This document shows, piece by piece, positions 1 through 11,385 of a DNA stretch of 11,385 bases. A program made the position numbers and the translations under genes. This stretch comes from an uncultured bacterium. Lineage in GTDB: Bacteria; Chloroflexota; Anaerolineae; JACIWP01. Every line of letters begins with the position of its first letter. Position 1 is the stretch's first letter. The notes beneath the pieces were generated by a model. It made no database searches. It was not told where the DNA came from and worked only from the letters and a program-made list of their open reading frames with translations. The stretch is from NCBI GenBank assembly GCA_903872005.1, contig CAIQJD010000015.1, forward strand, positions 1 to 11,385, written 5' to 3'.

Positions 1-124
1 AATTCACGCCCTGCAAGGCGTGGACGGCGATGCCTCGTTCTGCCGCCCCGTTGCCGGCGCTGCCGGTGGATGGCACGCCATACACCTTGGTCATGTCTGT
101 GATCGTAATGATTGCTTCTGACAC
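1..124 (-). CDS. ABC transporter ATP-binding protein, MacB/LolD type, N-terminal fragment
   Basis: The first 41 codons of an ATPase gene that runs off the left edge. It starts at GTG (122-124), with GGGAG at 132-136 seven bases upstream. The peptide opens with SEAIITITDMTKVYG and continues to VHALQGVN. This is the usual start of MacB/LolD-type ATPases: a beta strand, then the A-loop Tyr in K-x-Y-G, then V-H-A-L before the Walker A region. Between K-V-Y-G and V-H-A-L there are about 17 residues rich in Gly, Ser and Ala, longer than the short turn usual in the family. Walker A and everything beyond lie outside the window. The gene follows the periplasmic adaptor by 67 bases in the same direction, the usual adaptor-ATPase-permease order. 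The protein would power an inner-membrane efflux or lipoprotein-type permease. It is too short here to exclude other ABC subfamilies. Confidence 0.8.
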   Translation of the reverse strand, partial: MSEAIITITDMTKVYGVPSTGSAGNGAAERGIAVHALQGVN

Positions 125-191
125 GCGAATACTCCCATCACCTACCCGGTCCCGGAAAATGCCCGGTACGTTGCCTCAAGAAGATATGATG

Positions 192-1796
192 CTACTTCTT
201 CGGTGCAGCCGTGTCCTTGCCGTCGCTCGCATCCTGCTTCTTATCCACTTTGGCGTCCTTTGCAACGGTGAGGACTAGCTCTTCGCCAGGGTTCAGGCCG
301 GAGATGATCTCGGCGTTGACGAAGTCCCGCAGCCCGACTGTGACGAGGCGGGCCTCAGTTTGGCCATCGGGCTTCGCCACGAGGACGTAAAACTGCTCGC
401 TGCCGCCGCTTGCGCCCGGGGGTAGTGGGTGCAACGTCTGGAGCGGGGCCAGCACGGCGTTGCGCGCCTGGCGGGCCACGATATCCACCGCGGCGTGCAT
501 CCCCGCCAGCAAGGCGACGGGGTGGGAACCAAGATCAATGGTCGCATAGGACTGGACGGCCGGTGACCCATCTACGGTGACGAGGGCCGGATCCACGCTG
601 GTGATCCGGCCGGAGAAGGTGAGGTCGGGCAAGGCATCGAAAACAATGCTCACTGCATTGCCCGGCGCCACACTCGCCAGGCGCGCCTCCTCCACCCAGA
701 AGCGCAACCGAGGTTGGCTGAAATCGGCCAACGTGACGATGGCTTGCGTGCCCGCCGCTTGACCGGGGACCGCGCCGACAGCGGTCACCGTGCCGGCCGC
801 GGGAGCCAGCAAGACAGTGTCGGTCAACACACGCCTGGCGCTTGCCAAGTTCAACCGCGCCAGGGCGACGTTGAGCTCCGCCCTGGCCCGACCTGTGGTC
901 GTCCCTCCGGCCAAGAGTCCATCGAGCGCAGCCTGGGCCTGCGCCACCTGGGCCTCGGAGGCCGCTCGCGCATCCGCAGCAGGCCCTTGCAGCAAGGCGT
1001 CAAGATCAGCCTGGGCGCGGGCGACCTGGGCGCGGGCAGATGCGATCTGGCCGGGGCTGGCGCCCTGCCGCGCCTGGTTGTAGCGAGCCTTGTCCGCCTC
1101 GTAGTTGTTGGTGGTTTCCTGCAGGCGCAGGCTTTCGGGCCGACCGCTCACACCGGGCTCCCCGGCGACCATGTCGTAGGCGGATTGGGCTTGCTGGACC
1201 GCGGCTTCGGCAGTGGAAAGCGCCGCCTGGGCGATTGCAACTGCTTGAGGATCAGGCAAGCTGAGGAGATCCTGGAGGGTCTGTTGCGCGCCATTCAGAT
1301 TTTGCCGGGCAGCCTGGAGACGTCCCTCATTGACCGGCGCGGTCAGCGCTTGCAAGCTGGCTTTGGCGGTCGCCAGATTGGCCTGGGCCGCGGCCAGCGC
1401 CGCGGGATTGGCCGCGCCGGTCAGCTCCTCCTGGGCTAACTCGGCCAGACGCAGGCTGATCTCGGCCTGTGCGACCTGATCCCGAGCGAGGGTGTCGTCA
1501 ATGCGAGCCACGGCCTGCCCGGTCTGCACCTTGTCGCCGACCTTGACCTGCATCTCGGCCAGCAGGCCACCGCGGGGAAAGCCAAGCGCAACTTCCGAAG
1601 CGGGGAGTAAGATGCCCGAACCCTGGGCGGTGACAGTCAGATCGCCCTGGCCGACCCGGACGGTGTTGATGGCGGGTTTCGCAGCGCCTTTGGTGACCGC
1701 GGCCTTCCGATAGACGTTGGTGTAGTAGTAGCCGCCGCCGGCCGCGGCCAGCACGACGATCGAGAGGATGATCCATAAGAGTTTCTTTCGTATCAT
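192..1796 (-). CDS. Periplasmic adaptor subunit (HlyD/MacA-type membrane fusion protein)
   Basis: 534 residues. An N-terminal membrane anchor (about 6-26, after M-I-R-K-K) leads into a split biotinyl-lipoyl domain: first half about 45-100 (V-G-D-K-V-Q-T-G-Q-A-V-A at 86-97), second half near 330-350 (A-P-A-A-G-T-V-T-A-V). Between them, about 103-325 is Ala/Gln/Leu-rich helical hairpin with repeats of the form A-Q-A-x-L-D-x-L-L (261-269, 287-295). A beta-barrel domain follows at 363-440. The tail from 510 is Lys/Asp-rich and low in complexity. The hairpin is long, making the protein larger than the roughly 370-400 residues typical of MacA. The start is ATG with GAGGT a few bases upstream. It lies downstream of a two-component pair and upstream of an ABC ATPase, so it most likely couples an ABC exporter to the outer envelope. 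In an organism without an outer membrane it would instead form an extracytoplasmic adaptor. The substrate cannot be read from sequence. Confidence 0.92.
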   Translation of the reverse strand: MIRKKLLWIILSIVVLAAAGGGYYYTNVYRKAAVTKGAAKPAINTVRVGQGDLTVTAQGSGILLPASEVALGFPRGGLLAEMQVKVGDKVQTGQAVARIDDTLARDQVAQAEISLRLAELAQEELTGAANPAALAAAQANLATAKASLQALTAPVNEGRLQAARQNLNGAQQTLQDLLSLPDPQAVAIAQAALSTAEAAVQQAQSAYDMVAGEPGVSGRPESLRLQETTNNYEADKARYNQARQGASPGQIASARAQVARAQADLDALLQGPAADARAASEAQVAQAQAALDGLLAGGTTTGRARAELNVALARLNLASARRVLTDTVLLAPAAGTVTAVGAVPGQAAGTQAIVTLADFSQPRLRFWVEEARLASVAPGNAVSIVFDALPDLTFSGRITSVDPALVTVDGSPAVQSYATIDLGSHPVALLAGMHAAVDIVARQARNAVLAPLQTLHPLPPGASGGSEQFYVLVAKPDGQTEARLVTVGLRDFVNAEIISGLNPGEELVLTVAKDAKVDKKQDASDGKDTAAPKK

Positions 1797-1831
1797 GATG
1801 ACCTCGTTCTCGGCTTCATTCAGGTGGCTCA

Positions 1832-1903
1832 GACATCTGCGACCGACCGTAGTGTTTTTATGGTATCACACAGATGTCGAGAACCGATGCAGATGAGGTC
1901 GAG
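1832..1903 (-). promoter_or_regulatory. Candidate operator and extended -10 promoter for the adaptor-ABC operon
   Basis: The 122-base spacer between the kinase stop and the adaptor start holds structured sequence. On the minus strand, CTCGACCTCATCTG (1890-1903) and CTCGACATCTG (1871-1881) are near-identical direct repeats whose left ends are 22 bases apart, about two helical turns. They lie immediately upstream of TGATACCAT (1860-1868), an extended -10-like element. An inverted copy of the same half-site lies downstream: GACATCTG on the plus strand at 1832-1839 pairs exactly with CAGATGTC at 1871-1878. OmpR-family regulators usually bind direct repeats of about this spacing, and one is encoded just upstream (3340-4041). 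The link is inference. The inverted pair could instead form an RNA hairpin in the kinase-adaptor message. Confidence 0.4.
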
Positions 1904-1918
1904 GGGGCGTGCAGTTGC

Positions 1919-3343
1919 CTACACAGCAAGAGGCAAAGTGAAGCGAAAGACCGTGCCCGCTCCCGGCGTGCTCTCGGCCCAAATCCGACCGCCCTGCGCT
2001 GTCACCAGGCTCTGCGCGACAGACAGGCCGAGGCCTGTGCTGCTCGCTGTACCAACGCCGCCGGAGCGCGCTCGCGCCGGGTCTGCCCGCCAGAAGCGTT
2101 CAAAGACGTGAGGCAAGTCCTCCGCGGCGATGCCCTCCCCAGTGTCAGTGATGGCGATCGCCACGGTCTCCTCCCAGGCGGCTGCCGAGACCGTGACCGA
2201 GCCGCCGGGAGGCGTGTGACGCAGGGCGTTGATCAATAGATTCCGCAGCACTTGCGCCACCCTGTCGGGGTCAGACAGGACCGGCGGCAGAGCGGCGGGG
2301 AGTTGCGCGGTGAGTTTAAGCTCCTGCGCCTCAGCAGCCAGGGCCAAGGTGTCAACGGTGCGGCGGATGACCTGAGCCAGGTCGACAGGGATCAGATTCA
2401 GGTGCAATTGCCCGACGTCGGCTAACGCCAGTTCACGCAGATCATCCACCAGACGATTCAGCAGACGGGTCTCATCGTACAGCCGCGCAATTTCGGCCTT
2501 TTCGAGGGGATAGGCGTCGTTCAGGATCGCCCACAGGCCGCCCTGGAGTACGCTGAGCGGAGTGCGCAGCTCGTGGGCGACATCGGCTACCATGTTCTGG
2601 CGCAGGATCTCCGCCTGTTTCAGAGCGGCCGTCATCTCATTGAAAGCCTGGCCCACTTGGGCGATTTCGGTGCTGCCCCCGGTCGCGACCTGCCGATCCA
2701 GATCGCCGGCCGCGACAGCCCGTGAAGCGTCTACCAGGTGTTGCAGCGGCGCGTTCAGCCGGCGGCTCAACAGCGCGCCGACAATCACGGAAAGGCTCAC
2801 GGCCAACGCCGCGCCGCTCAGGAGAATCTGCTGCACGCGTTCGAGAAACTGCAGCTCCAAATCGCCAAGGGAAAAGTTGACGGGCCAGAAGAGCAACAGA
2901 TAGCCGACTACTTTTGGATCTCCAAGCGCGGTGATAGGCCAGGCATTGGCTCGTTCGCTGCCACTGAATGTCGTCCCTTTGGTCCGTACCGCATCGTTGC
3001 TGTAGATGATTCGGCCGCTGGCATCAGCCAGCAGGAGCATCGGTGATGCCCCGTTCGCCTTTGGCTCGCTGGCGTCGGAGGGCGGCGCGCCCAGGCCGAT
3101 GCCCTCTGGGCCAAAATGGATGCCTTCAGCGAGCAGGCTTTCCACGCCCGCCCAACCTTGATGTTGCCGATAGTACTCGCCCAGTCTTTGGAAGCCGTTG
3201 GCAGGGTTTTGCAAATCGCTCTGGGCGAAGTACTTGCGGAACTCGGCTTTCGCGCTGTGATTGACCCAGAGCACGGTGCTGACCATGGTAACGATGATGA
3301 CCGCGCCGAAGGCCAGGGTCTGCTGCACCCAGAGCCGCCTCAT
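1919..3343 (-). CDS. Membrane sensor histidine kinase (BaeS/PhoR-like)
   Basis: 474 residues. One membrane span at about 9-28, an extracytoplasmic sensor of about 145 residues, a second span at about 173-193, then HAMP (about 193-245), the HisKA dimerisation helix with phospho-acceptor His257 in V-A-H-E-L-R-T-P-L, and a C-terminal ATPase domain. The ATP-binding boxes are complete: N-box N-A-L-R-H-T-P-P-G (372-380), D-T-G-E-G (400-404), F-box near 414-418 and G-L-G-L (437-440). It should autophosphorylate and pass phosphate to the response regulator encoded just upstream. The regulator's stop and the kinase ATG share four bases (ATGA, 3340-3343), and GGAGG lies six bases before the start, so translation is coupled. 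The sensor part has no recognisable ligand pocket. The adaptor and ABC genes downstream suggest it senses envelope stress or a toxic compound, which is inference from neighbours. Confidence 0.95.
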   Translation of the reverse strand: MRRLWVQQTLAFGAVIIVTMVSTVLWVNHSAKAEFRKYFAQSDLQNPANGFQRLGEYYRQHQGWAGVESLLAEGIHFGPEGIGLGAPPSDASEPKANGASPMLLLADASGRIIYSNDAVRTKGTTFSGSERANAWPITALGDPKVVGYLLLFWPVNFSLGDLELQFLERVQQILLSGAALAVSLSVIVGALLSRRLNAPLQHLVDASRAVAAGDLDRQVATGGSTEIAQVGQAFNEMTAALKQAEILRQNMVADVAHELRTPLSVLQGGLWAILNDAYPLEKAEIARLYDETRLLNRLVDDLRELALADVGQLHLNLIPVDLAQVIRRTVDTLALAAEAQELKLTAQLPAALPPVLSDPDRVAQVLRNLLINALRHTPPGGSVTVSAAAWEETVAIAITDTGEGIAAEDLPHVFERFWRADPARARSGGVGTASSTGLGLSVAQSLVTAQGGRIWAESTPGAGTVFRFTLPLAV

Positions 3344-4041
3344 GGGATACCTCCGCCAGTCAGGCGATAGCCGACGCCGAAAACTGTCTCGATGAAGTCG
3401 GCCGGCGCGCCGGCGTCGGTCAGCTTGCGGCGCAGGTTGCGAATGTGGCTGTCCACGGTGCGCTCCAGGCCTTCATAGCTGTAACCCAGACCGTGCTCGA
3501 TCATCTCCAGACGGGTGAGCGCCCGGCCGCGCTGCTCGGCTAGGGCCTGGAGCAGGCCGAACTCGGTGGTCGTGAGATGGATAGCCTGGCCGCACACCTC
3601 TGCCTGATAGGCAGCGAAATCCAGCGTCAAGTCCCCGATGCGGATCACTTTGGACGCGGCATGTCCCGACTGGGTGCGGCGCAAGACCGCGTGGATACGT
3701 GCGATCAATTCGCCGGGATGGAAAGGCTTGGTGACGTAGTCGTCGGCGCCCAGTTCCAGGCCAACGATGCGGTCGTGATGCTCGATGCGGGCTGTGAGCA
3801 TGATGATCGGCGTGCTTGCCTGGCTGGCATCGCCGCGTAGCACGCGAGTCACATCCCAGCCATCACGGTCAGGCAACATCAGGTCCAGCACTACCAGATC
3901 GGGGCGCTCGCGGCGCAGGACATGCAGGGCCGTCTCGCCATCATAGGCGACGAACACTTGGTACCCCGCCTGCTCCAGGCTGGCGCGCAGCAAGCGCACG
4001 ATCTCCCGATCATCGTCTACGACAAGTATACGCTGGATCAT
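3340..4041 (-). CDS. OmpR/PhoB-family response regulator
   Basis: 233 residues from ATG at 4039-4041. The receiver domain has the full site: acidic pair Asp9-Asp10, phospho-acceptor Asp53 in V-L-D-L-M-L-P-D-R-D-G, Thr83 and Lys105 in T-K-P-F. A winged-helix DNA-binding domain follows (about 133-228), with L-T-T-T-E-F-G-L-L, R-T-V-D-S-H-I-R-N-L-R-R-K-L and G-V-G-Y-R-L, the standard OmpR signatures. The reading frame stays open another 62 codons upstream, but that stretch is not receiver-like. The family normally begins a few residues before V-V-D-D-D, as this ATG does. It is cotranscribed with its kinase and probably controls the adaptor-ABC genes. There is no Shine-Dalgarno sequence before the ATG; a TATAAT element ends six bases upstream, consistent with a leaderless message. 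Confidence 0.95.
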   Translation of the reverse strand: MIQRILVVDDDREIVRLLRASLEQAGYQVFVAYDGETALHVLRRERPDLVVLDLMLPDRDGWDVTRVLRGDASQASTPIIMLTARIEHHDRIVGLELGADDYVTKPFHPGELIARIHAVLRRTQSGHAASKVIRIGDLTLDFAAYQAEVCGQAIHLTTTEFGLLQALAEQRGRALTRLEMIEHGLGYSYEGLERTVDSHIRNLRRKLTDAGAPADFIETVFGVGYRLTGGGIP

Positions 4042-4056
4042 ATTGCCATTATAGCA
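4042..4056 (-). promoter_or_regulatory. Extended -10 promoter abutting the response regulator start (possible leaderless mRNA)
   Basis: On the minus strand TGCTATAAT (4048-4056) is a perfect TATAAT with an upstream TG extension. Exactly six bases, GGCAAT, separate it from the ATG at 4041. Transcription would therefore begin at or next to the A of the start codon. No convincing -35 sits 16-18 bases upstream, which an extended -10 can tolerate. The absence of any ribosome-binding sequence before the ATG fits a leaderless transcript. Confidence 0.65.
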
Positions 4057-4160
4057 TAGAGTTATTGAATTCTTGTGCAGGCCATACCCACATCTGGCAC
4101 AGGAGGGCATTGGATAACCTGCGCGCTGGACGGTTTGTCGGTGTGGTCGCATGGAGAGTG

Positions 4161-4169
4161 TGTTATGAT
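4161..4169 (+). promoter_or_regulatory. Extended -10 promoter of the transposase remnant
   Basis: TGTTATGAT on the plus strand is a TG-extended -10 (TATGAT at 4164-4169) lying 30 bases before the ATG of the 56-codon transposase remnant. AGGA at 4189-4192 is a suitable Shine-Dalgarno site. No good -35 was found at the expected distance. It points away from the regulator promoter at 4048-4056, so the two are divergent. Confidence 0.35.
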
Positions 4170-4199
4170 CTTGCTTGGGAATAGCACCAGGATGTTGAG

Positions 4200-4594
4200 A
4201 TGCGCAAGTGGGTCCAATTGCGGCCATTGATGGCAGAAGAAGCGACTGAAGTCAGGCGATCAGCCGCATCACGCAGGGAGACCATTCGGCAGGTCCAACG
4301 GGCGCGGACCATCGCCTGGTTGGCTGAGGATGCGGCGCTATGTGCTTATGGGGCGGCCCATTGGGAGTAGCTGGCCGTCGGAGGCCTGAAGTGAAAGCAC
4401 CGACGGAGCGGATTCCACGCTGCTGCGAAACACGATCCGGAGCTCGCACGAAGAATCTGAACCAACTTCCCGGCACCCTGGCAAGCTGTGGGCACATGGA
4501 GCGTACAAACCGGCTGCCGGCCAGGTCATGCTGGCGTTGAGCGCCACCGGCGGCAACGCCAGCCCCACCTATTTTGACGAGAGAGCCATTTAGA
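4200..4594 (+). pseudogene. Degraded IS630-like transposase (N-terminal and internal pieces)
   Basis: The first piece, ATG 4200 to TAG 4370, encodes 56 residues beginning M-R-K-W-V-Q-L-R-P-L with helical basic segments (E-V-R-R-S-A-A-S-R-R, Q-V-Q-R-A-R-T-I-A-W). This resembles the N-terminal helix-turn-helix entry of IS630-type transposases. A second open stretch (about 4390-4594, a different frame) contains K-L-W-A-H-G-A-Y-K-P-A-A-G-Q-V-M, which looks like the beta strand near the first catalytic Asp of the DDE domain. A large middle part, the catalytic residues and the C terminus are missing, so it cannot transpose by itself. The first piece keeps a Shine-Dalgarno site (AGGA, 4189-4192) and a -10 element. 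Family assignment is from remembered sequence patterns. Apart from this remnant, the regulator promoter and the hairpin at 4530-4563, I see nothing in the 548-base spacer 4042-4589. Confidence 0.5.
4530..4563 (-). terminator. Hairpin after the exosortase operon, possible 3' end or terminator
   Basis: GCTGGCGTTG (4530-4539) and CAACGCCAGC (4554-4563) are perfect 10-base inverted repeats. The 14-base loop contains a second small stem, CGCC/GGCG. The hairpin lies 26 bases after the stop codon of the last operon gene. No T-run follows on either strand, so it is not a textbook intrinsic terminator. It could protect the 3' end of the message or aid factor-dependent termination. It also overlaps the transposase remnant and might be a relic of that element. 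Confidence 0.4.
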
Positions 4595-5474
4595 TCTTGC
4601 CCATGCGGTAGGCGCTGCCGGTTTCGGCTTTGGCCTGGCGGAGCAGGGCGCGGCCGGCGTGGTACACCTGGCCGGCGTGAGGGGTTTTGTCGGCATCGAG
4701 CAATACGATGCCGATGGAGACGGAAGGCGTGGCGATGGCCGAGCCGGGGCCGGCGTTCCAGTCGCTTACGACGGCGTCGAACGCGCGGATGATGGCGCGC
4801 GCGATGGGTTCGCCGCGGTCGGGTGTGGTGATAATCATGAAGTCGTCCTGTCCGAAGTAGCCGGCGAAGCCGCCGCGACCCTCTTCTTTTACCTGCGCCT
4901 GGATGATGCGCGCCAGTTGCCAGAGGAGTCGTTCGCCGTTTTCGTAACCAGCGTATTCGTTGAAGGCAGTCAGGCTGTTCAGGTCAATGAAACAGACGGC
5001 TTGCGCCATGCCGGCGCTGAGCCGGGAGCGCAGCGTGTTGTCAATGGACGCGCTCCCATCCAGGTCAGCCAGCCAGCTTTGCATGCGCGCCACGATGCGC
5101 TGTTTGATGAGCATCTTGATGCGGCCATCCACGTGATCCAATGGCTCGCCCTTTGTGAGGAAGTCGTCTGCGCCCATCTCGTGCGCTTTCTGGCGCGCGG
5201 CTACGCCGCGCAGGCTGGTGAGGATCATGATGGGAATTGAGTTGGTGCGGGGGGTGGCGCGCAGCCGGCTGCACACTTCGTAGCCGTCCATGCCGGGCAT
5301 CATGATGTCGAGGAGGATGATGTCAGGGTCTTCGCTGGAGGCTTTCGCCAGGGCGTCTTTCCCGCCGTTCGCTTCAATCACGTGATAGTGTTGTTTGAGC
5401 AGCGCCGCCCCATACATTTTCAACACCAGAGGTTCGTCGTCCACCAGCATCACTTTGAAAGTGTCGAAAGCCAT
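4590..5474 (-). CDS. Response regulator with degenerate GGDEF output domain
   Basis: 294 residues. Receiver domain 5-125 with all key residues: Asp12-Asp13, phospho-acceptor Asp56 in L-L-D-I-M-M-P-G-M-D-G, Thr86 and Lys108. Residues 155-290 have the diguanylate cyclase fold: C-F-I-D-L-N-S-L-T-A-F-N-E-Y-A-G-Y-E-N-G matches the metal and base-binding strand-helix, and S-V-S-I-G-I matches the later strand. The signature itself is G-Q-D-D-F (208-212) instead of G-G-D/E-E-F. Loss of the second Gly and the Glu-to-Asp change make c-di-GMP synthesis doubtful, though nucleotide binding may remain. No DNA-binding domain is present. It starts at ATG sharing one base with the glycosyltransferase stop (TGATG), with AGGAGGT upstream. 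As the last gene of the operon it probably switches exosortase or glycan synthesis through protein contact. No partner kinase is encoded nearby. Confidence 0.9.
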   Translation of the reverse strand: MAFDTFKVMLVDDEPLVLKMYGAALLKQHYHVIEANGGKDALAKASSEDPDIILLDIMMPGMDGYEVCSRLRATPRTNSIPIMILTSLRGVAARQKAHEMGADDFLTKGEPLDHVDGRIKMLIKQRIVARMQSWLADLDGSASIDNTLRSRLSAGMAQAVCFIDLNSLTAFNEYAGYENGERLLWQLARIIQAQVKEEGRGGFAGYFGQDDFMIITTPDRGEPIARAIIRAFDAVVSDWNAGPGSAIATPSVSIGIVLLDADKTPHAGQVYHAGRALLRQAKAETGSAYRMGKI

Positions 5475-6823
5475 CAGTGACCTCCTCGCAAGGCGCTGAT
5501 CTTGCCGCGGATGTAATCAGATAGGGAGTTGAGGGCGTCGCGCGTCTCTGTGACTGGATCGCGCACGCGCCAACCGGCCGGCTCGGCCAGGGTGATGATG
5601 CAGCCGGCCAGGCGTGAGATGAAGATGAAGAGGCGGTAGGTGGGCATGATGCCGGCGATCCACCAGGAACGTTTCATGCGTTGGCGGATGTCGGCCGGCA
5701 CGACGAGATAGACCGAAAGGGTTGACAGCATCGCCAGCAGGCCGTAGAACAGGTAGACTAGCCCGAAAGCGCCGATAATCAGGCTCAGGGGATAGCCGAA
5801 AAAGATGAGCGCCGGGAAGACGAACGTCCAAATGAGCCGCGGAAAGATGAAGGTGTGGTCAATCAACAAGGTCCGACCAAGGGCCAGGCCCTTGAAGCGC
5901 AGGATGTTGCTGTCTACCATGTCGTTATGGACGGCGGCTACTTCGATCTCACCACGTTGCCAGCGCACTCGCTGGGAGTAGAGCGCGCCGAGGGATGGCG
6001 TCGGCGTCACGTAGATGATCGCCTCCGGGACGCAAGCCAGCCGGCCGCCGCCAAACTGGCGCCGGATGTCAAAGGTGATTTTGGTATCTTCGGAGACGGT
6101 CTGTTTGTCGTAGAGCATGGTGTTCAACAGGACATCACGTCGGAAGAACGAGAAGACGCCGGCGAGCGTGAATAGACTCTCGCTTAGGGCTTGCCCCTGG
6201 CGACCGAGCCAGAAGGCCGCCAGGTATTCATGAAACTCACATTCGGCGATCAGAAAGGCCACGCGGTCGCCGCGCTGATCATCCGGCAGCGGGAGCACTT
6301 CCACCGCCCCGGTGGCTGCGGCCAGGCGATGATCTGCTTCGAAGCGCCGCGCCATCTCGCGCATGGCGTCAGGGTGGATCACGGCGTCGGCATCAATGGT
6401 ACAGAGATAGGGGTGAGTTGTCAAGTGCAGGCCGGCGTTGAGGGCATAGGATTTGCCGCGGCCGGAGATGGAGATGAGGTGCATCTGGCCGCGATAGGGC
6501 TGGACGCTAATCTGGTTGAAGATGTCGCAGGTATGGTCGGTGCTGCCGTTGTCCACGACGATGATTTCGACCATTTCCGGCGGGTAGTTCTGCTGGCGCA
6601 GGCTGTGCAGACAGTTGCCCAGGGTATCTTCGCCATTATATACGGGGACGATGAGCGATAGGCCGGGCCAGACCTCTGGATCGGGGACGGCCTGGCGCCG
6701 GGCGCGGGCGCGACTGATGGCTACTTGCACAAGCACGACCAGCTCATTGACGCCGTCCACCAAAATGGGTAGGATGAGCCAGACGCCCCAGTAGATCGCT
6801 ATGGCAAAGATTTGCTCTTTCAT
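5474..6823 (-). CDS. Processive family-2 glycosyltransferase, exosortase-associated
   Basis: 449 residues. An N-terminal membrane segment (about 6-32) precedes a cytosolic GT2 catalytic domain. The UDP-sugar and metal-binding motifs are all present: V-V-D-N-G-S (89-94), D-A-D (144-146), the S-E-D catalytic-base motif (244-246) and Q-R-V-R-W (284-288), the Q-x-x-R-W signature of processive polysaccharide synthases. At least three C-terminal membrane segments follow (about 325-348, 350-376, 388-412). Architecture and length fit the glycosyltransferase that accompanies exosortase G in Gram-positive bacteria, and its position directly after the exosortase supports that. It probably polymerises or transfers sugar at the inner face of the membrane and feeds an envelope glycan. 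The sugar cannot be predicted. Its ATG is 7 bases past the exosortase stop, and its Shine-Dalgarno sequence AGGA overlaps that stop codon, indicating coupled translation. Confidence 0.92.
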   Translation of the reverse strand: MKEQIFAIAIYWGVWLILPILVDGVNELVVLVQVAISRARARRQAVPDPEVWPGLSLIVPVYNGEDTLGNCLHSLRQQNYPPEMVEIIVVDNGSTDHTCDIFNQISVQPYRGQMHLISISGRGKSYALNAGLHLTTHPYLCTIDADAVIHPDAMREMARRFEADHRLAAATGAVEVLPLPDDQRGDRVAFLIAECEFHEYLAAFWLGRQGQALSESLFTLAGVFSFFRRDVLLNTMLYDKQTVSEDTKITFDIRRQFGGGRLACVPEAIIYVTPTPSLGALYSQRVRWQRGEIEVAAVHNDMVDSNILRFKGLALGRTLLIDHTFIFPRLIWTFVFPALIFFGYPLSLIIGAFGLVYLFYGLLAMLSTLSVYLVVPADIRQRMKRSWWIAGIMPTYRLFIFISRLAGCIITLAEPAGWRVRDPVTETRDALNSLSDYIRGKISALRGGH

Positions 6824-6830
6824 CGCTGTC

Positions 6831-7448
6831 CTATGCGCGCATGCGCGCCTGGATGCTGACGCCTAAGTCGCGAATGGTGAGCCGGCTCAACAGGAGCCAG
6901 TAGACGCCGATGGCCAGCACGAAGAACACAATGCGGCCAATGATGGTGTGCGCCAGAAAGATCGAAGACTTGCCAAAGATGTGCAGGATGCTCAAGATAG
7001 TCATCACGCGCAATAGATTGGCTCCAAAGAGGGCGACGGCGCCGAGCGCCATGTACCCTAAGCGCCGGATGAATGACCAGGTCGGATAGAAAGAAAGGAG
7101 TCCAATCAGTACCGCCATTTCCAGGAACCCCGAACACTCCACATCGACGCGCACGATGGTCCAGCCGGGGTCTTGTACGACGACCCAGACCAGGATGTCG
7201 CCCGGCGTTGCCTCGAACACGTGGGTCGGGATGCCGAGGACTTCGCAGAAGGCGTGCGCGCCGCTGGTGGTCGCCAGCTCCAGCCAGCGTTCGAGGGGGG
7301 TGAGGCGCGCGCCGGCAAAGATCAGCAGCAGCGTCAGGCCAACCGCGCCGAGGCAATAGTAGACGAGCCAGATGCGATAGCGACGGAAGAAGTAGACTAA
7401 GGCCAGCCAGGCAATGGTCAGCAGGCCAAAACCTATGTATTGGCCCAT
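6831..7448 (-). CDS. xrtG: Exosortase (XrtG-like membrane transpeptidase/protease)
   Basis: 205 residues from the ATG at 7446-7448. This start is preferred to an in-frame ATG 69 bases upstream because GGGAGG (7454-7459) sits five bases before it and the longer version adds a basic, non-membrane extension. It is a multi-span membrane protein with segments near 5-22, 28-46, 108-122, 132-156 and 172-188. The three exosortase/archaeosortase catalytic residues are in order: Cys105 in V-E-C-S-G, Arg147 in N-L-L-R-V, and His167 in A-H-T-I-I-G-R. The family recognises C-terminal tripartite sorting tails on secreted proteins and cleaves them, probably handing them to an envelope acceptor. The small size and the GT2, PTPS-like and PTPS-related membrane neighbours match the exosortase G set. 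Its 5' end overlaps the candidate substrate gene by 16 bases. The catalytic triad supports function strongly; the G subtype rests mainly on neighbours. Confidence 0.9.
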   Translation of the reverse strand: MGQYIGFGLLTIAWLALVYFFRRYRIWLVYYCLGAVGLTLLLIFAGARLTPLERWLELATTSGAHAFCEVLGIPTHVFEATPGDILVWVVVQDPGWTIVRVDVECSGFLEMAVLIGLLSFYPTWSFIRRLGYMALGAVALFGANLLRVMTILSILHIFGKSSIFLAHTIIGRIVFFVLAIGVYWLLLSRLTIRDLGVSIQARMRA

Positions 7449-8143
7449 GCGCGCCTCCCGCGAGTGCGCCAAACCAGGACAACGGCGCCGAGAAACAGGA
7501 CCATGAGCAGCGGCCATCCCAGCGCCGGGATGGGCGCCCAGGTGATCGTGCCGCTGTCCGGCGCCCGATCCAGGTTCCCGCCGGTCTCTGTGGCGCCGGC
7601 GGAGATGTACATGCTGATCGTCTGGTGCGAGAAGACGCCCAGATCGGCGAATGAGACAACGAACTCGACCTGCGCGCCGCCCTCCGCGACGGATTGACCC
7701 CAGTCGCCGCTCCTTTGGCTGATTTGGCCGCCGCTACCGGAAAAGACGGTCACGATGACCTGGCTGGTCGTTTGCTGCGGGTCATACAGGACGGCGATGC
7801 GGCGATCGTCGCCATCGCCGGCGTTGCCGTTGTTGTTCGCATCTATGTAGACGTTGTAGAAGACTCTGGGGTTATTGCTATTGGGCGGGGTACGCACAAT
7901 CATGAAGGCGATCCGATCCCAACCGACCACGCTGGCCCAGGAGATGAGCGTGATGTCTGTGTTGGGCGTCGGGCCATCGCCGGCCGGGTCTGTAATGGAG
8001 CCGTAGCCGCTCCAATCTGCGAATTGGCCGTCCATCACCGGCCCTTCGGCCCAGACGCCGGCCGGCAGGACCAGGATCAGCGTCAGGGCGAGCAGTGTTC
8101 CGATCAGGAGGAGGCGCAGGTCAAGCCATCTCACTCGGCGCAT
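7433..8143 (-). CDS. Secreted protein with IPTL-CTERM-like sorting tail, candidate exosortase substrate
   Basis: 236 residues. The N-terminal signal peptide has a basic start (M-R-R-V-R), a hydrophobic core at 10-27 and a likely cut after A-x-A-like V-W-A near 32. The mature part begins M-D-G-Q-F-A-D-W-S-G, a D-G-x-x-x-D-W opening seen in CBM9/DOMON-like beta-sandwich domains. It has an Asp/Asn/Gly-rich loop, Y-I-D-A-N-N-N-G then G-D-G-D-D (99-113), that could bind calcium. The C terminus is tripartite: P-I-P-A-L-G-W (204-210), a hydrophobic span to about 225, then R-T-R-G-R-R (226-231). This closely recalls the IPTLxxWG-type sorting tails of exosortase substrates. It overlaps the membrane protein before it by 23 bases and the exosortase after it by 16. 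The function of the mature domain is unknown. An ordinary C-terminal anchor cannot be excluded. Confidence 0.8.
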   Translation of the reverse strand: MRRVRWLDLRLLLIGTLLALTLILVLPAGVWAEGPVMDGQFADWSGYGSITDPAGDGPTPNTDITLISWASVVGWDRIAFMIVRTPPNSNNPRVFYNVYIDANNNGNAGDGDDRRIAVLYDPQQTTSQVIVTVFSGSGGQISQRSGDWGQSVAEGGAQVEFVVSFADLGVFSHQTISMYISAGATETGGNLDRAPDSGTITWAPIPALGWPLLMVLFLGAVVLVWRTRGRRAWANT

Positions 8144-10619
8144 GGGTGTTTCCTTTCTGGCGGAATAGGTTGGGGAGCGCAGCTATCGTGGCCGCGCCGG
8201 CCAGGCCGAGGACGCTGACAGCCAGGCCGAGATAGTAGATGGGGGTGGGCGTCAGGGTAATGGACACGCGGTGCACGCCGGCCGGGGCCTCGAAGGCCAA
8301 CATGTTCTCGAACGAGTGGCTGTGGGCCGGCCGGCCGTCTACGAATACTTGCAGGGCGTCGTGATCGGCGATGGGCACGAAGAGCAGGTCAGGTTGTTCC
8401 AGCGTGTAGCTGAAGCGGTAGCCACGCGCGGATGCCGTATAACCGCGCAGCGGCACGGATTGGTAGGCGTTGGGGTGATCGGCCAGCAGTTCCAGCGCTT
8501 CGCTGAGGAGCGCGATGACCGCCGGGTCGCGCGTGAGCAGGGCGTGGTACGGCAGGTTGTCGCCCACGAACCAGATGCGGCCGGCGCCGATTTGGCGGTA
8601 GCCCAGCGCGGCGCTGAACGTACCGAAATATGGGTGGCGCAGGACTTCTTTGTCTAGCCCCTGGGGCGAGTAGGCGACCCAACTTTCGAATTCGGAACTG
8701 AAGGGAAGGAGCTGATAGGTCTTACCTTCGCCTTCGAGCCGGAGAGCGGTATGCCCCAAGACGATCGGCTCGCCCCAAACGCCCAGAAATCGGGGTTGGC
8801 GCGTCAGCGGGTCATCGCGGATGCCGGTCATGTCCACAAAGACGCGCACGCCGGCCTGGGCGATTCGGGTGACAAGCTCCTCGGCGCTCTGACGGTCGTT
8901 CCATTCGAAGCCGGAGAGGATCAGGGTGTCGTAGCCGGCCAACTCCTCGAAGGAGTATTGGTCCACACGCGATTCGCTGCCGATGATGATCTGCGGGAAG
9001 AGGTAGGCGAAATTCTGCGCGCCGCGTCCGATACCCAGGGCGCGCCAATTGGCGCGTATGGCGCGCGGCGCGCCGTCACGGTGGTACCAGGCGATGTCGG
9101 CGCTGCTGTATTGCTGCATGAAGCCGGCGTCGGCCAATTGGGTCGGCAAGTCAGCGGCCATCGGTTGTGTCTTCAGCGTGACGATGTCGTCTACTCCCAG
9201 CAGATTCAGCCGGTCGAACACGAAGTTGGCGAAATTGCGTTGCAGGGCTTCGTCCAGGGCTGAGACGTTGCGGGCGATGTGTGCGCCCTGGTAGGCCCAG
9301 CCGTATAGTTGCTCCCGCCCGCCGACGGAGCTGAAGAAGTAGGATGGGGCCGAGCCGAGCCGGCTGTAGTCCAGCGTGGCCTCGCGCCAGCCATAGGTCG
9401 TCGCCAATTGGTGGGCGATGTCGGTGATTTCGACGCGCGCCGGCCGCAGGTAGATGAGTCGCAGCGAGAGGAGGCTGTCGCCAGCGATCAGGGCAATGAT
9501 TAGGGCGGTCACGATGACCAGCCGGCCGCGCGTCCATTCGCTCAAGCGCCAGATGATTGCCAGGAGAAGGCAGAAACTGGCGAAGCCGATGAAGCGCAAG
9601 GGCCAGAAGAGGTGGTGAAGAGGGAGCGCGTTGAAGATGGCGTTGAAGCCCGGCGTTGTGATCAAGATTCCGAAGAAGCCGATGCCACTCAACGCGATGG
9701 CGTAGGCATTGCGCCCGCGCCGGATGAGCAGGAGCGCGAGGGCGACCAGGAGCAACGCCGCGCCGGCGTAGACGGTTTCGGGGTCGCTGGCGCGCAGGGT
9801 TGGGTTGAGGTAGGTGGTCAGGGGAAAGATCGCCAGGGCTTCGGTCATGGCCGTGGTGTTCAATTCGGTGATGCCGCCGACCAGGCTGGGCAGGAGCCAC
9901 CAGCCGGCCAGCAGTATGCCGATGGCCATGGAGCCAATGCCGGCCATGGCGCGCTGGACGTTGGCGCGCCGGCCGATCCAGAGTAGCATGCACAGGAGGG
10001 CGCAGCAAGCAGCGTAGATGGCTGCCATCATGGCGTGGCAGAGGACGATGAGCATAAAACAGAGGGTCAGGGCGAGGCGGTGCGAACGCCGGCCGGTCTC
10101 TTCCAGGCTACGTATGAGCAGGTAGACGGCCCAGGGGACGATGGCGGTCGCCAGGACACGCGGCAGGTTGCCTTCGGCCAGGGCGACGCGGATATTGTCG
10201 GGGAGGAGTGTGTAGAGCGCGCCGCCGATAACGGCCGGCAGCCAGCCGAACCAGCGGCGATACGGCAGCCAACCCAGGCCGCCCAGCAGCGCGCAGAGGG
10301 CGATGAGCCAGTTGGCGGCGGAGACCGCGCTGCTGGTCAGGGCAGCCAGCACGAAGAGGACGTAGTAGGGGAGCGGAGAGTGATAGCGGAGCATTTGCAG
10401 GCCGGCATACCATTGGGGGAGCAGGTCCGGGTAGGCAACGCCGGCCAGTAGTTGACGGGACAGGTATTCGGTCTTCAGCACGTGGCCGAGGGTGTCAGAT
10501 GCCCAGGGGTAGAGCGGAACCGAGCCGGCCGGCGCTAAGATGCCACGGTAGACCAGTGCTGTGATGGCGGCGATGAACAGGACACTGGCGGTTTGTCTCC
10601 CCAATTCTCGGGCGCGCAT
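8121..10619 (-). CDS. Large multi-spanning membrane protein, PTPS-related/GT-C type
   Basis: 832 residues. About a dozen membrane segments fill residues 10-390. The first outer loop has S-D-T-L-G-H (41-46), Y-P near 63 and P-L-P-Y-Y (82-86), the arrangement of GT-C glycosyltransferases with an acidic residue after the first span. From 395 to 790 it is soluble and probably extracytoplasmic. It includes a Rossmann-like stretch (Y-D-T-L-I-L-S-G near 563, V-R-V-F-V-D-M-T-G near 591) resembling glutamine-amidotransferase-like folds, and a YfhO-like ending (V-F-V-D-G, then G-V-H-R-V). A last membrane span lies at about 796-815. The family is annotated as 6-pyruvoyl-tetrahydropterin-synthase-related membrane protein (PF10131, from memory). 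It probably uses a lipid-linked sugar to modify a glycan or protein outside the membrane; that role is inferred. ATG with GAGG upstream. It follows the PTPS-like gene by 118 bases. Confidence 0.85.
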   Translation of the reverse strand: MRARELGRQTASVLFIAAITALVYRGILAPAGSVPLYPWASDTLGHVLKTEYLSRQLLAGVAYPDLLPQWYAGLQMLRYHSPLPYYVLFVLAALTSSAVSAANWLIALCALLGGLGWLPYRRWFGWLPAVIGGALYTLLPDNIRVALAEGNLPRVLATAIVPWAVYLLIRSLEETGRRSHRLALTLCFMLIVLCHAMMAAIYAACCALLCMLLWIGRRANVQRAMAGIGSMAIGILLAGWWLLPSLVGGITELNTTAMTEALAIFPLTTYLNPTLRASDPETVYAGAALLLVALALLLIRRGRNAYAIALSGIGFFGILITTPGFNAIFNALPLHHLFWPLRFIGFASFCLLLAIIWRLSEWTRGRLVIVTALIIALIAGDSLLSLRLIYLRPARVEITDIAHQLATTYGWREATLDYSRLGSAPSYFFSSVGGREQLYGWAYQGAHIARNVSALDEALQRNFANFVFDRLNLLGVDDIVTLKTQPMAADLPTQLADAGFMQQYSSADIAWYHRDGAPRAIRANWRALGIGRGAQNFAYLFPQIIIGSESRVDQYSFEELAGYDTLILSGFEWNDRQSAEELVTRIAQAGVRVFVDMTGIRDDPLTRQPRFLGVWGEPIVLGHTALRLEGEGKTYQLLPFSSEFESWVAYSPQGLDKEVLRHPYFGTFSAALGYRQIGAGRIWFVGDNLPYHALLTRDPAVIALLSEALELLADHPNAYQSVPLRGYTASARGYRFSYTLEQPDLLFVPIADHDALQVFVDGRPAHSHSFENMLAFEAPAGVHRVSITLTPTPIYYLGLAVSVLGLAGAATIAALPNLFRQKGNTHAPSEMA

Positions 10620-10737
10620 GGCTCATCCTCATCGGAGTCTTCCAAGCAGTTTTCAAGCGCCATTGTTTTGGCGCATTGCAGGGCCGTGCTGGCGGCCTGG
10701 GGGCCGGCGCTGGACAACCGAGATGGCGCGCCGGGCG
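10620..10737. other. Spacer between the PTPS-like and membrane protein genes
   Basis: This 118-base gap is the only sizeable gap inside the exosortase operon. It has no credible ORF. On the minus strand GCGCC and GGCGC (10657-10661 and 10670-10674 in plus coordinates) could form a 5-bp stem with an 8-base A/T-rich loop about 38 bases before the membrane protein start. I found no convincing promoter, so read-through from the first gene is assumed. Confidence 0.5.
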
Positions 10738-11136
10738 CTACTCTTTGATCGCGACGGTCACGCTGTTGGTAGGCGATTCCCAGATGGTCAGGGCGTGCAG
10801 TCTTGCATCGGAGCCACGAAATTCTTTGTCGAGCAGCTCGAACAGATACGTGACAAGATTTTCCGCGGAAGGCTCCTCGAAGGTGAATGGCGGGATGTCA
10901 TTCAAGAATGCATCTTCATAGCGGGCGAACAGGCGACGCAAGATGCGCCTGGTCTCTGCGATGCTGATGAGGGTGTGCTCCCCCAGATAGCGTGGCCGGC
11001 GGATTCTGACTTCAACCTTCCACGAGTGGGAATGCGCCGGCTCGTCCCCGATGGCGTGGCGGGCATTGAAGAAATCTATGACGGCAATCTCATAGATGTG
11101 TTCAACGATTACAGGGCCGGGACGTTGTGTGCTCAC
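10738..11136 (-). CDS. 6-pyruvoyl-tetrahydropterin synthase-like protein, exosortase-associated, catalytically degenerate
   Basis: 132 residues starting at GTG (11134-11136). There is only a weak purine stretch upstream and no in-frame ATG nearby. The fold signature is F-F-N-A-R-H-A-I (22-29) then A-H-S-H-S-W (34-39), which keeps the three zinc-ligand histidines of PTPS/QueD (His27, His35, His37). P-S-A-E-N (89-93) matches the usual P-T-A-E-N, and Glu120 in W-E-S-P-T-N corresponds to the substrate-binding Glu. The catalytic Cys that normally precedes the H-x-H pair is absent, and the L-D-H motif with the second catalytic residue is replaced by E-D-A-F-L-N. Pterin or queuosine chemistry is therefore unlikely. 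A similar PTPS-related protein accompanies exosortase G in Gram-positive bacteria (TIGR03112, from memory). As the operon's first gene it may bind a small molecule or act as a partner protein. Its role in sorting is unknown. Confidence 0.88.
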   Translation of the reverse strand: MSTQRPGPVIVEHIYEIAVIDFFNARHAIGDEPAHSHSWKVEVRIRRPRYLGEHTLISIAETRRILRRLFARYEDAFLNDIPPFTFEEPSAENLVTYLFELLDKEFRGSDARLHALTIWESPTNSVTVAIKE

Positions 11137-11210
11137 GTTGGTGTTTCTTTCGTACGAAATGTGACGCGGCAGCGCCCAAGGGACGTCGCATCTCGCGTGC
11201 TTCTCGTGTG

Positions 11211-11239
11211 AGTATATGTGGGAATGCTGGTTTCGTCAA
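11211..11239 (-). promoter_or_regulatory. Sigma70-type promoter of the exosortase operon
   Basis: On the minus strand TTGACG (11234-11239) and TATACT (11211-11216) are separated by exactly 17 bases, with five of six matches to each consensus box. The predicted start is near 11204, giving an untranslated leader of about 68 bases before the GTG of the PTPS-like gene. All six genes down to 4590 lie in one direction without another convincing promoter. The -35 box is only 25 bases beyond the stop codon of the transposase gene at 11265, so part of the promoter may lie in the insertion element's end. Confidence 0.75.
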
Positions 11240-11264
11240 GACGGGTTCGATTCGGGGGTGTGTT

Positions 11265-11385
11265 TCAGAATGGGGGTGAGTTGCGAGCCAGGCGCCACAC
11301 GGCGTCGAAGCGATCGCTCATAATGGCAGTACGAATGGGGAGCAGGTTTTCGGCGCCGCGACGGCTCCAGCGCATACCTGGGCCG
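11265..11385 (-). CDS. Transposase, C-terminal end (possibly ISKra4-like), runs off the window
   Basis: The last 39 codons of a gene that enters from the right edge and stops with TGA (11265-11267). The peptide contains G-M-R-W-S-R-R-G-A-E-N-L-L-P-I-R, then S-D-R-F-D-A-V-W and a short tail ending N-S-P-P-F. The G-M-R-W-S-x-x-G-A pattern, an R-T/A-x-x-x-S-x-x-F/W-D block and an aromatic W near the end are typical of the C termini of ISKra4-like transposases. Family placement is from memory and tentative. No inverted-repeat end could be identified without the rest of the element. Reading the same bases on the plus strand gives nothing sensible. Confidence 0.55.
   Translation of the reverse strand, partial: GPGMRWSRRGAENLLPIRTAIMSDRFDAVWRLARNSPPF

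Follow-up and report, generated by a model that had tools for sequence, protein, structure and literature searches.

A stretch of 11,385 nucleotides from an uncultured bacterium of the Chloroflexota (class Anaerolineae; contig CAIQJD010000015.1, positions 1 to 11,385, hereafter the window) carries a six-gene bacterial cell-surface operon on its minus strand, encoding, in order of transcription, a PTPS-like protein, a PF10131 membrane protein, a secreted protein (hereafter SEC), an exosortase, a GT2 glycosyltransferase, and a receiver-GGDEF protein. On balance, we favor the reading of this operon as an exosortase-G (XrtG) envelope module to which a response regulator has been added, and its probable task is to make a glycan and to attach a single sugar-binding protein to the cell exterior. 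The proposal draws on gene set, gene order, the folds of predicted models, residue patterns, gene fusions, and co-variation, and from these we infer the cleavage site, the acceptor, the product, the complex, and the action of the regulator.

In the working that we propose, SEC would leave the cytoplasm and stay on the outer side of the membrane, anchored through its C-terminal helix, and XrtG, using Cys105 with Arg147 and His167, would cut it close to Pro206 of the motif WAPIPALG. XrtG would then pass the CBM9-like domain of SEC on to an acceptor; this is most likely a glycan or lipid-linked saccharide that the neighboring GT2 and GT-C (PF10131) enzymes would have made. The PTPS domain would be a non-catalytic cytoplasmic partner of the GT-C protein, and PTPS, GT-C, SEC, and XrtG would sit in one membrane assembly with SEC as a built-in subunit. 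The receiver of the regulator would be phosphorylated by a kinase, and its GGDEF-like domain would probably act via protein contact or nucleotide binding rather than through synthesis of cyclic di-GMP (c-di-GMP).

The exosortase exceeds the TIGR03110 (XrtG) cut-off (104.7 vs. 102.75 bits), which bears out the XrtG type given to it in a preliminary description made from the sequence alone, and the residues Cys105, Arg147, and His167 named there are present and invariant across the 19 rows of our exosortase alignment A1. Of the profile hidden Markov model matches expected in that description, those of the exosortase and of the PF10131 protein (414.6 bits vs. a Pfam cut-off of 26.4) were obtained outright and that of the GT2 to TIGR03111 very nearly, while the match of the PTPS-like protein to TIGR03112 missed its cut-off. 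Each named NCBIfam model is the best-scoring one for its window protein, whether or not the cut-off is reached. The PTPS, PF10131 protein, secreted protein, XrtG, and GT2 together are recognizable as the XrtG set, as had been described; by their sequences, the parts other than XrtG and the PF10131 protein resemble that set below their cut-offs. The PTPS-like protein, previously called degenerate, lacks the catalytic Cys and the Asp-His dyad, which are residues of QueD/PTPS enzymes, as do all 16 relatives (16/16) aligned by eye. The window and 15 of the 16 relatives in this alignment retain the His pattern of the metal site; the other, L052 (13285-13923, a Ser-type locus), is without two of the three metal-site His residues. 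SEC was likewise found to have the sorting-like tail ascribed to it, with the WAPIPALG motif, a C-terminal transmembrane helix, and a basic end, and its predicted model appears CBM9-like. This likeness to CBM9 carbohydrate-binding modules comes at 11-19% identity, the model retrieved no match at E 0.001 with Foldseek alone, and sugar binding by SEC is only putative.

The predicted model of the PF10131 protein has a GT-C fold that matched STT3, AftD, PglB, ArnT, and Pmt by structure comparison, making it a candidate GT-C enzyme. The structural realignments for this protein and for SEC were a second look at Foldseek's own list, and other folds are possible. A soluble domain at residues ~450-719 of the protein (gene 8121-10619) resembles part of GH42 beta-galactosidases, and STM3548, by structure comparison. 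Since the nearest matches of the GT-C enzyme are the oligosaccharyltransferases STT3/PglB/AglB, it might instead move a polyprenyl-linked glycan onto SEC or other exported proteins, with XrtG only trimming or releasing SEC. We find this doubtful: AftD and ArnT, which are not protein glycosyltransferases, also match the model well, and the GT2 with its QRVRW motif is of the polymer-making type, its nearest family outside the XrtG system being PgaC/IcaA. Pfam likewise detects GT2 domains in this protein, and the next NCBIfam family after TIGR03111 scores 126.7 bits.

Natural gene fusions join the parts of the proposed assembly in several combinations (our genome searches were samples drawn from larger taxonomic groups). 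PTPS is fused to the PF10131 protein in L078, and to a PF10131-like protein followed by SEC in L076. In the SEC fusions of L076 and L078, NCBIfam matches TIGR04145 only weakly (E 0.009). SEC stands on the C-terminus of the PF10131 protein in L076, L082, L083, L084, and L050, with its transmembrane helix and basic tail kept. In the Chloroflexota locus L050 (2-3043), the join is a long Ser/Thr/Pro linker, and the open reading frame (ORF) is open at the contig start. SEC stands on the N-terminus of XrtG in L077 (226-1428), L078 (9014-10216), L080 (109-1305), L081 (8214-9416), L120, L121, L126, L127, L128, and L130; as read from the sequences, the transmembrane helix and tail of SEC are gone in these and SEC runs into the first helix of XrtG. 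The SEC-XrtG fusions come from nine genomes (G764, G963, G883, G1416, G1415, G1406, G1430, G1412, and G826), and within the order of G764 eight of 14 matching genomes have the fusion and six have unfused genes. G1406 holds two copies, L126 and L130, on different contigs. The combinations PTPS-GTC, PTPS-GTC-SEC, GTC-SEC, and SEC-XrtG argue that SEC is a built-in subunit and not one of many sorted proteins, and, as far as sequences can indicate, that PTPS, GT-C, SEC, and XrtG work as one membrane assembly.

According to the accessible text of two earlier studies, the nucleophile in the exosortase superfamily is Cys (PMC7157517; PMC1569441). The position equivalent to Cys105 was found to hold Cys in 61, Ser in 6, and Asn in 3 of 70 database XrtG-like proteins, the window included. 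All nine SEC-XrtG fusion genomes are without the nucleophile Cys, with Asn in eight and Ser in one (L127), and Ser also occurs there in the unfused XrtG of L052, L053-L056, L058-L061, L103, and L107. The SEC tail changes in step. At W+4, counted from the tail Trp (Pro206 in the window), Pro is found in 21/21 Cys-type rows and Asn, Asp, or Ser in 8/8 Ser-type rows, and none of the other 14 tail positions, from W-6 to W+8, separates the two sets. This column control took 21 of 26 Cys rows with a CBM9-type tail, and the five outside it (L008, L057, L083, L085, and L122) all have Pro. In the Dehalococcoidia/Tepidiforma loci (L014, L015, L016, L020, L051, and L056), where the SEC profile found no CBM9-like protein, another large surface protein with a CSGA..MGW tail replaces it; that tail reads CSGAPTMGW beside a Cys XrtG and CSGATAMGW in the Ser-type L056. 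The SEC-XrtG fusions keep the Pro itself (as PFP), and what is lost in them is the separate tail.

Overall, the state of the nucleophile agrees with the state of the tail in 51/51 scored rows, with none discordant: 32 have Cys and a Pro tail, and 19 have no Cys, nine of these having lost the Pro and ten having the fusion. The 51 rows represent 50 distinct XrtG proteins (L010 and L122 are identical, and L126 and L130 share a genome), and they exclude two Ser rows in which no tail was found (L061 and L107), the database proteins, which came without gene context, L106 (whose XrtG equals that of L014), L079, and repeat fetches of counted loci. The tails of L019, L075, and the Dehalococcoidia/Tepidiforma loci were aligned in register by eye. 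In a 69-row XrtG tree built with the nucleophile masked, changes between Cys and non-Cys occurred at least five times, and a single clade of the 15 Ser rows is rejected by the approximately unbiased (AU) test (p 9.6e-6, with P0172 and L127 left out). These change counts do not distinguish losses from gains, and where L050 (Cys) stands next to L103 (Ser) the direction of change is ambiguous.

Read most simply, Cys and Pro would serve a single reaction, and both would have decayed where that reaction was abandoned and XrtG was retained. XrtG should therefore do something else too, probably holding SEC at the synthase. The sequences suggest that relatives of XrtG have repeatedly lost the cutting chemistry with the enzyme itself retained, and they suggest a role for XrtG beyond cleavage. 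We regard as an evenly balanced proposition the fuller picture in which XrtG belongs as a subunit to a membrane assembly for glycan synthesis, some four lineages are pseudo-exosortases that keep SEC uncut at the synthase, and the window has the cutting form together with a phospho-switch. It is based on the replacement of Cys by Ser or Asn, which accompanies either the loss of the Pro or the joining of SEC to the first helix of XrtG, in an active-site neighborhood that is otherwise invariant. That same invariance (Glu104, Ser106, Gly107, and Arg147 identical in 70/70 proteins, and His167 in the 68/68 with a letter there), along with the transmembrane helix and basic tail still found on SEC at Ser-type loci, would also suit an active enzyme with a serine nucleophile, in which the changed motif (Pro to Asn, Asp, Ser, or Thr) marks a shift in specificity and not a loss of catalysis. 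We consider that rather unlikely, given that Asn, which is no usual nucleophile, stands at the same position in 8/9 SEC-XrtG fusion genomes and that the fusions have no separate tail to cut; an active serine exosortase of changed specificity is conceivable for the Ser-type proteins and awkward for those with Asn. We searched the literature by titles and the openings of abstracts, with most subscription journals outside the search, and found neither Ser- or Asn-type exosortases nor SEC-XrtG fusions.

An orthologue of the regulator (319-325 bits) was found only in G001, G002, and G404 among 16 XrtG-bearing Chloroflexota genomes; these are all three genomes examined of that order, and in each the regulator lies directly after the GT2, with ORFs that overlap it. 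The regulator is thus a clade-level addition, and we rejected it as a general feature of Chloroflexota XrtG loci. The preliminary description had tied a response regulator to the XrtG locus and expected the same six-gene order in several genera. The tie holds in 3/3 genomes of one order and in 0/13 of the other XrtG-bearing genomes, and there is precedent for an exosortase with a two-component system in PrsK/PrsR. The gene order was half borne out: in the order concerned, L057 and the frameshifted L001 have all six genes (2/3 genomes), and in L002 only five of the six are seen because its contig begins inside the PF10131 gene, but the 13 other XrtG-bearing Chloroflexota genomes provide no further case. 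The apparent frameshifts in the GTC and SEC copies of the metagenome-assembled genome at L001 (6816-10597) and an ambiguous stretch at L057 (9408-10043) are probably assembly errors.

A database search, in which the best 120 of 7999 scored candidates were considered, delimits a discrete regulator family, P0021-P0061, whose 41 clusters include that of the window and after which E steps from 2e-72 to 2e-57. For five XrtG/regulator cluster pairs besides the window, the longest contigs are of equal size (7467, 9889, 132242, 40070, and 3669), which suggests that the members of each pair lie together. The receiver is intact, with Asp56 and Lys108 each in 41/41 clusters and Asp12/Asp13 in 40/41 (one gap). 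The GGDEF motif reads GQDDF in the window, which is also the commonest form (13/41 clusters); one cluster has the near-canonical GGDDF, and the canonical GG[DE]EF is found in 0/41. Because of this the regulator is probably not a diguanylate cyclase, signaling by c-di-GMP synthesis is unlikely, and we set it aside. Judged from these residues, the protein is probably a phosphorylatable switch whose GGDEF domain no longer makes c-di-GMP. No DNA-binding domain was found over cut-off in it by Pfam, nor any PilZ domain in the Pfam scan of nine window proteins. We consider it improbable that the gene is a neighbor unconnected in function with XrtG, or that it encodes an active general-purpose diguanylate cyclase: receiver proteins are abundant (15-144 matches per XrtG-bearing Chloroflexota genome), the adjacency is confined to one order, and the nucleotide site is partly kept, but the overlap with the GT2 in the window and in three relatives, the discrete orthologue family, and the paired contigs speak against a passenger, as the missing canonical motif does against a cyclase.

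Several results weigh against the proposal as a whole. The literature search found no cleavage, acceptor, or glycan reported for any XrtG system. The GT2 scores 359.7 bits against a TIGR03111 cut-off of 363.95 (4.3 bits short, in a near full-length match), and the PTPS-like protein scores 51.2 bits against 69.35 for TIGR03112. SEC is below the TIGR04145 (Firmicu-CTERM) cut-off of 50 bits, with 15.1 bits in the window and 20.9 in L002, compared to 116.3 for the protein of L075, and a profile comparison of SEC with that L075 protein was weak (probability 41%, E 2.8e-4). The SEC gene does adjoin XrtG and encodes a transmembrane helix and basic C-terminus, which is the context used to recognize Firmicu-CTERM proteins. 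The co-variation involves few changes: the four independent nucleophile/tail pairs are concordant (4/4; sign test p 0.125), a test that with four independent changes cannot reach significance, and its groups were named after seeing the data. No regulator orthologue was found in 13 of the 16 XrtG-bearing Chloroflexota genomes, where the best score was 120.7 bits, and the core module therefore does not need the regulator; in G003, whose XrtG falls in the window's clade and whose contig ends inside XrtG, the regulator search reached 103.0 bits, with no orthologue. Lastly, the GGDEF nucleotide site is partly kept (Asp164 in 37/41 clusters and Asn172 in 32/41), and nucleotide binding, even activity, is possible.

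The closest known counterpart is the XrtG system of Bacillota (TIGR03110/03111/03112, TIGR04145, and PF10131), as in L075 or in Lactiplantibacillus plantarum, for which the available part of one report lists a CTERM protein and Xrt with two glycosyltransferases as a 'complete' system (PMC12854382). It shares with the window an XrtG over cut-off, a GT2 of the TIGR03111 kind, a PTPS-like protein, a PF10131 protein, and a local substrate with a transmembrane helix and basic tail. Compared with L075, the window differs in gene order, has three of four NCBIfam models under cut-off, and adds the receiver-GGDEF gene. A dedicated local substrate, put forward in the preliminary description as a new feature, is usual in XrtG loci, including L075, where the TIGR04145 protein adjoins XrtG, and the L. 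plantarum set.

A two-component regulator, PrsK/PrsR, is tied to the PEP-CTERM/EpsH exosortase system, and the likeness to the window is that of an exosortase linked to polysaccharide genes and such a regulator; in the text available, PrsR interacts with sigma-54 and regulates many substrate genes (PMC1569441), whereas the window has one substrate gene and a regulator without a DNA-binding domain over cut-off. The gts operon of Lactobacillus acidophilus (GtsA, GtsB, and PdeB) is similar in being a GT2 operon that ends with a catalytically dead protein of c-di-GMP-type domain. PdeB belongs to the EAL proteins and binds c-di-GMP, the portion of the source available mentions neither an exosortase nor a PTPS (PMC6123363), and we retained the gts operon as no more than an analogy. 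Our literature search found no receiver-GGDEF protein in an XrtG operon. The attached receiver-GGDEF gene is what is new in this operon; the pairings of an exosortase with a two-component system and of a GT2 with a dead c-di-GMP-type domain were already known.

The XrtG module is sparse but broad. TIGR03110 retrieved 15 matches at E 0.001 from 400 Chloroflexota genomes, eight at 76 bits or more and the other seven at 30.5 or less, with only one over cut-off. Alignment A1 matched 12 of 396 genomes of the class of G001 (nine strongly), alignment A2 matched 17 of 294 in the class of G360 (nine strongly), and matches were found in 13 of 398 genomes from the phylum of Syntrophomonas (G743), 12 of them at 93.9 bits or more, and in 14 of 63 from the order of G764. 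A single-sequence contig search for relatives confirmed none, and an alignment-based one yielded 20 loci. The nearest name-bearing relatives are Anaerolineae/Chloroflexota, in agreement with the Chloroflexota setting suggested earlier. The order PTPS-GTC-SEC-XrtG-GT2 recurs in L055, L058, L059, and L060 (from the class of L001), in L004 (a Chloroflexi metagenome-assembled genome), and in L052 and L053. Bacillota loci usually retain SEC-XrtG-GT2, with a PF10131 protein that for the most part lies upstream and is often longer; in the two that were scanned, L076 and L078, the extra length is the fused PTPS domain. L075 has the differing order PTPS-CTERM-Xrt-GT2-PTPS-PF10131, with its TIGR04145 protein between a PTPS gene and XrtG. 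That locus is flanked (6412-7848 and 15220-18992) by a GH16 with CBM_4_9, a GH31, and a sugar kinase.

In the window ORF list, the six co-directional ORFs claimed beforehand are all present on the minus strand, spanning 11136 down to 4590 (Table 1). The successive gaps from PTPS to regulator are 118, -23, -16, +7, and -1 nt, such that the last five genes overlap or sit no more than 7 nt apart and the PTPS gene alone is set off. The ATG of the regulator shares one base with the GT2 stop (TGATG), and AGGAGG lies upstream of this start. The single good promoter that had been proposed is plausible but unproven, since five promoter-like sites were found in the window vs. 2.3 +/- 1.6 in shuffled sequences, which is weak evidence. 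After a gap of 548 nt downstream of the operon, positions 192-4041 of the same strand encode an OmpR-type response regulator, a HAMP histidine kinase, and an HlyD-type membrane fusion protein, probably a separate unit that may hold a kinase partner.

Table 1. Features of the XrtG operon in the window, in order of transcription. XrtG is read from the ATG at 7448; the ORF list has a longer start at 7517.
Feature	Position	Strand	Length	Characteristics
Promoter-like site	11211..11239	-		TTGACG-17-TATACT; consensus match 10/12; ~75 nt before first start codon
PTPS-like protein	10738..11136	-	132 aa	GTG start; PF01242 68.8 bits; TIGR03112 best NCBIfam model
PF10131 membrane protein	8121..10619	-	832 aa	PF10131; GT-C fold in predicted model
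SEC	7433..8143	-	236 aa	Signal-like helix; CBM9-like beta-sandwich (predicted); WAPIPALG (Trp202, Pro206); C-terminal transmembrane helix; basic tail
Exosortase XrtG	6831..7448	-	205 aa	TIGR03110; Cys105/Arg147/His167
Processive-type GT2	5474..6823	-	449 aa	TIGR03111 best NCBIfam model; DNGS, DADA, ED, and QRVRW motifs
Receiver + non-canonical GGDEF protein	4590..5474	-	294 aa	PF00072 91.2 bits; PF00990 42.3 bits; GQDDF

We found no function for the XrtG system in the literature searched. The evidence offers a concrete picture that can be tested, with a single CBM9-like substrate, a Pro whose state follows that of the nucleophile, and fusions that place the parts in one assembly. The natural replacements of the nucleophile could help to tell what an exosortase does by cutting from what else it does. 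In one Chloroflexota lineage, a response regulator without a recognized DNA-binding domain appears to be wired into the operon, where it may perhaps act after transcription.

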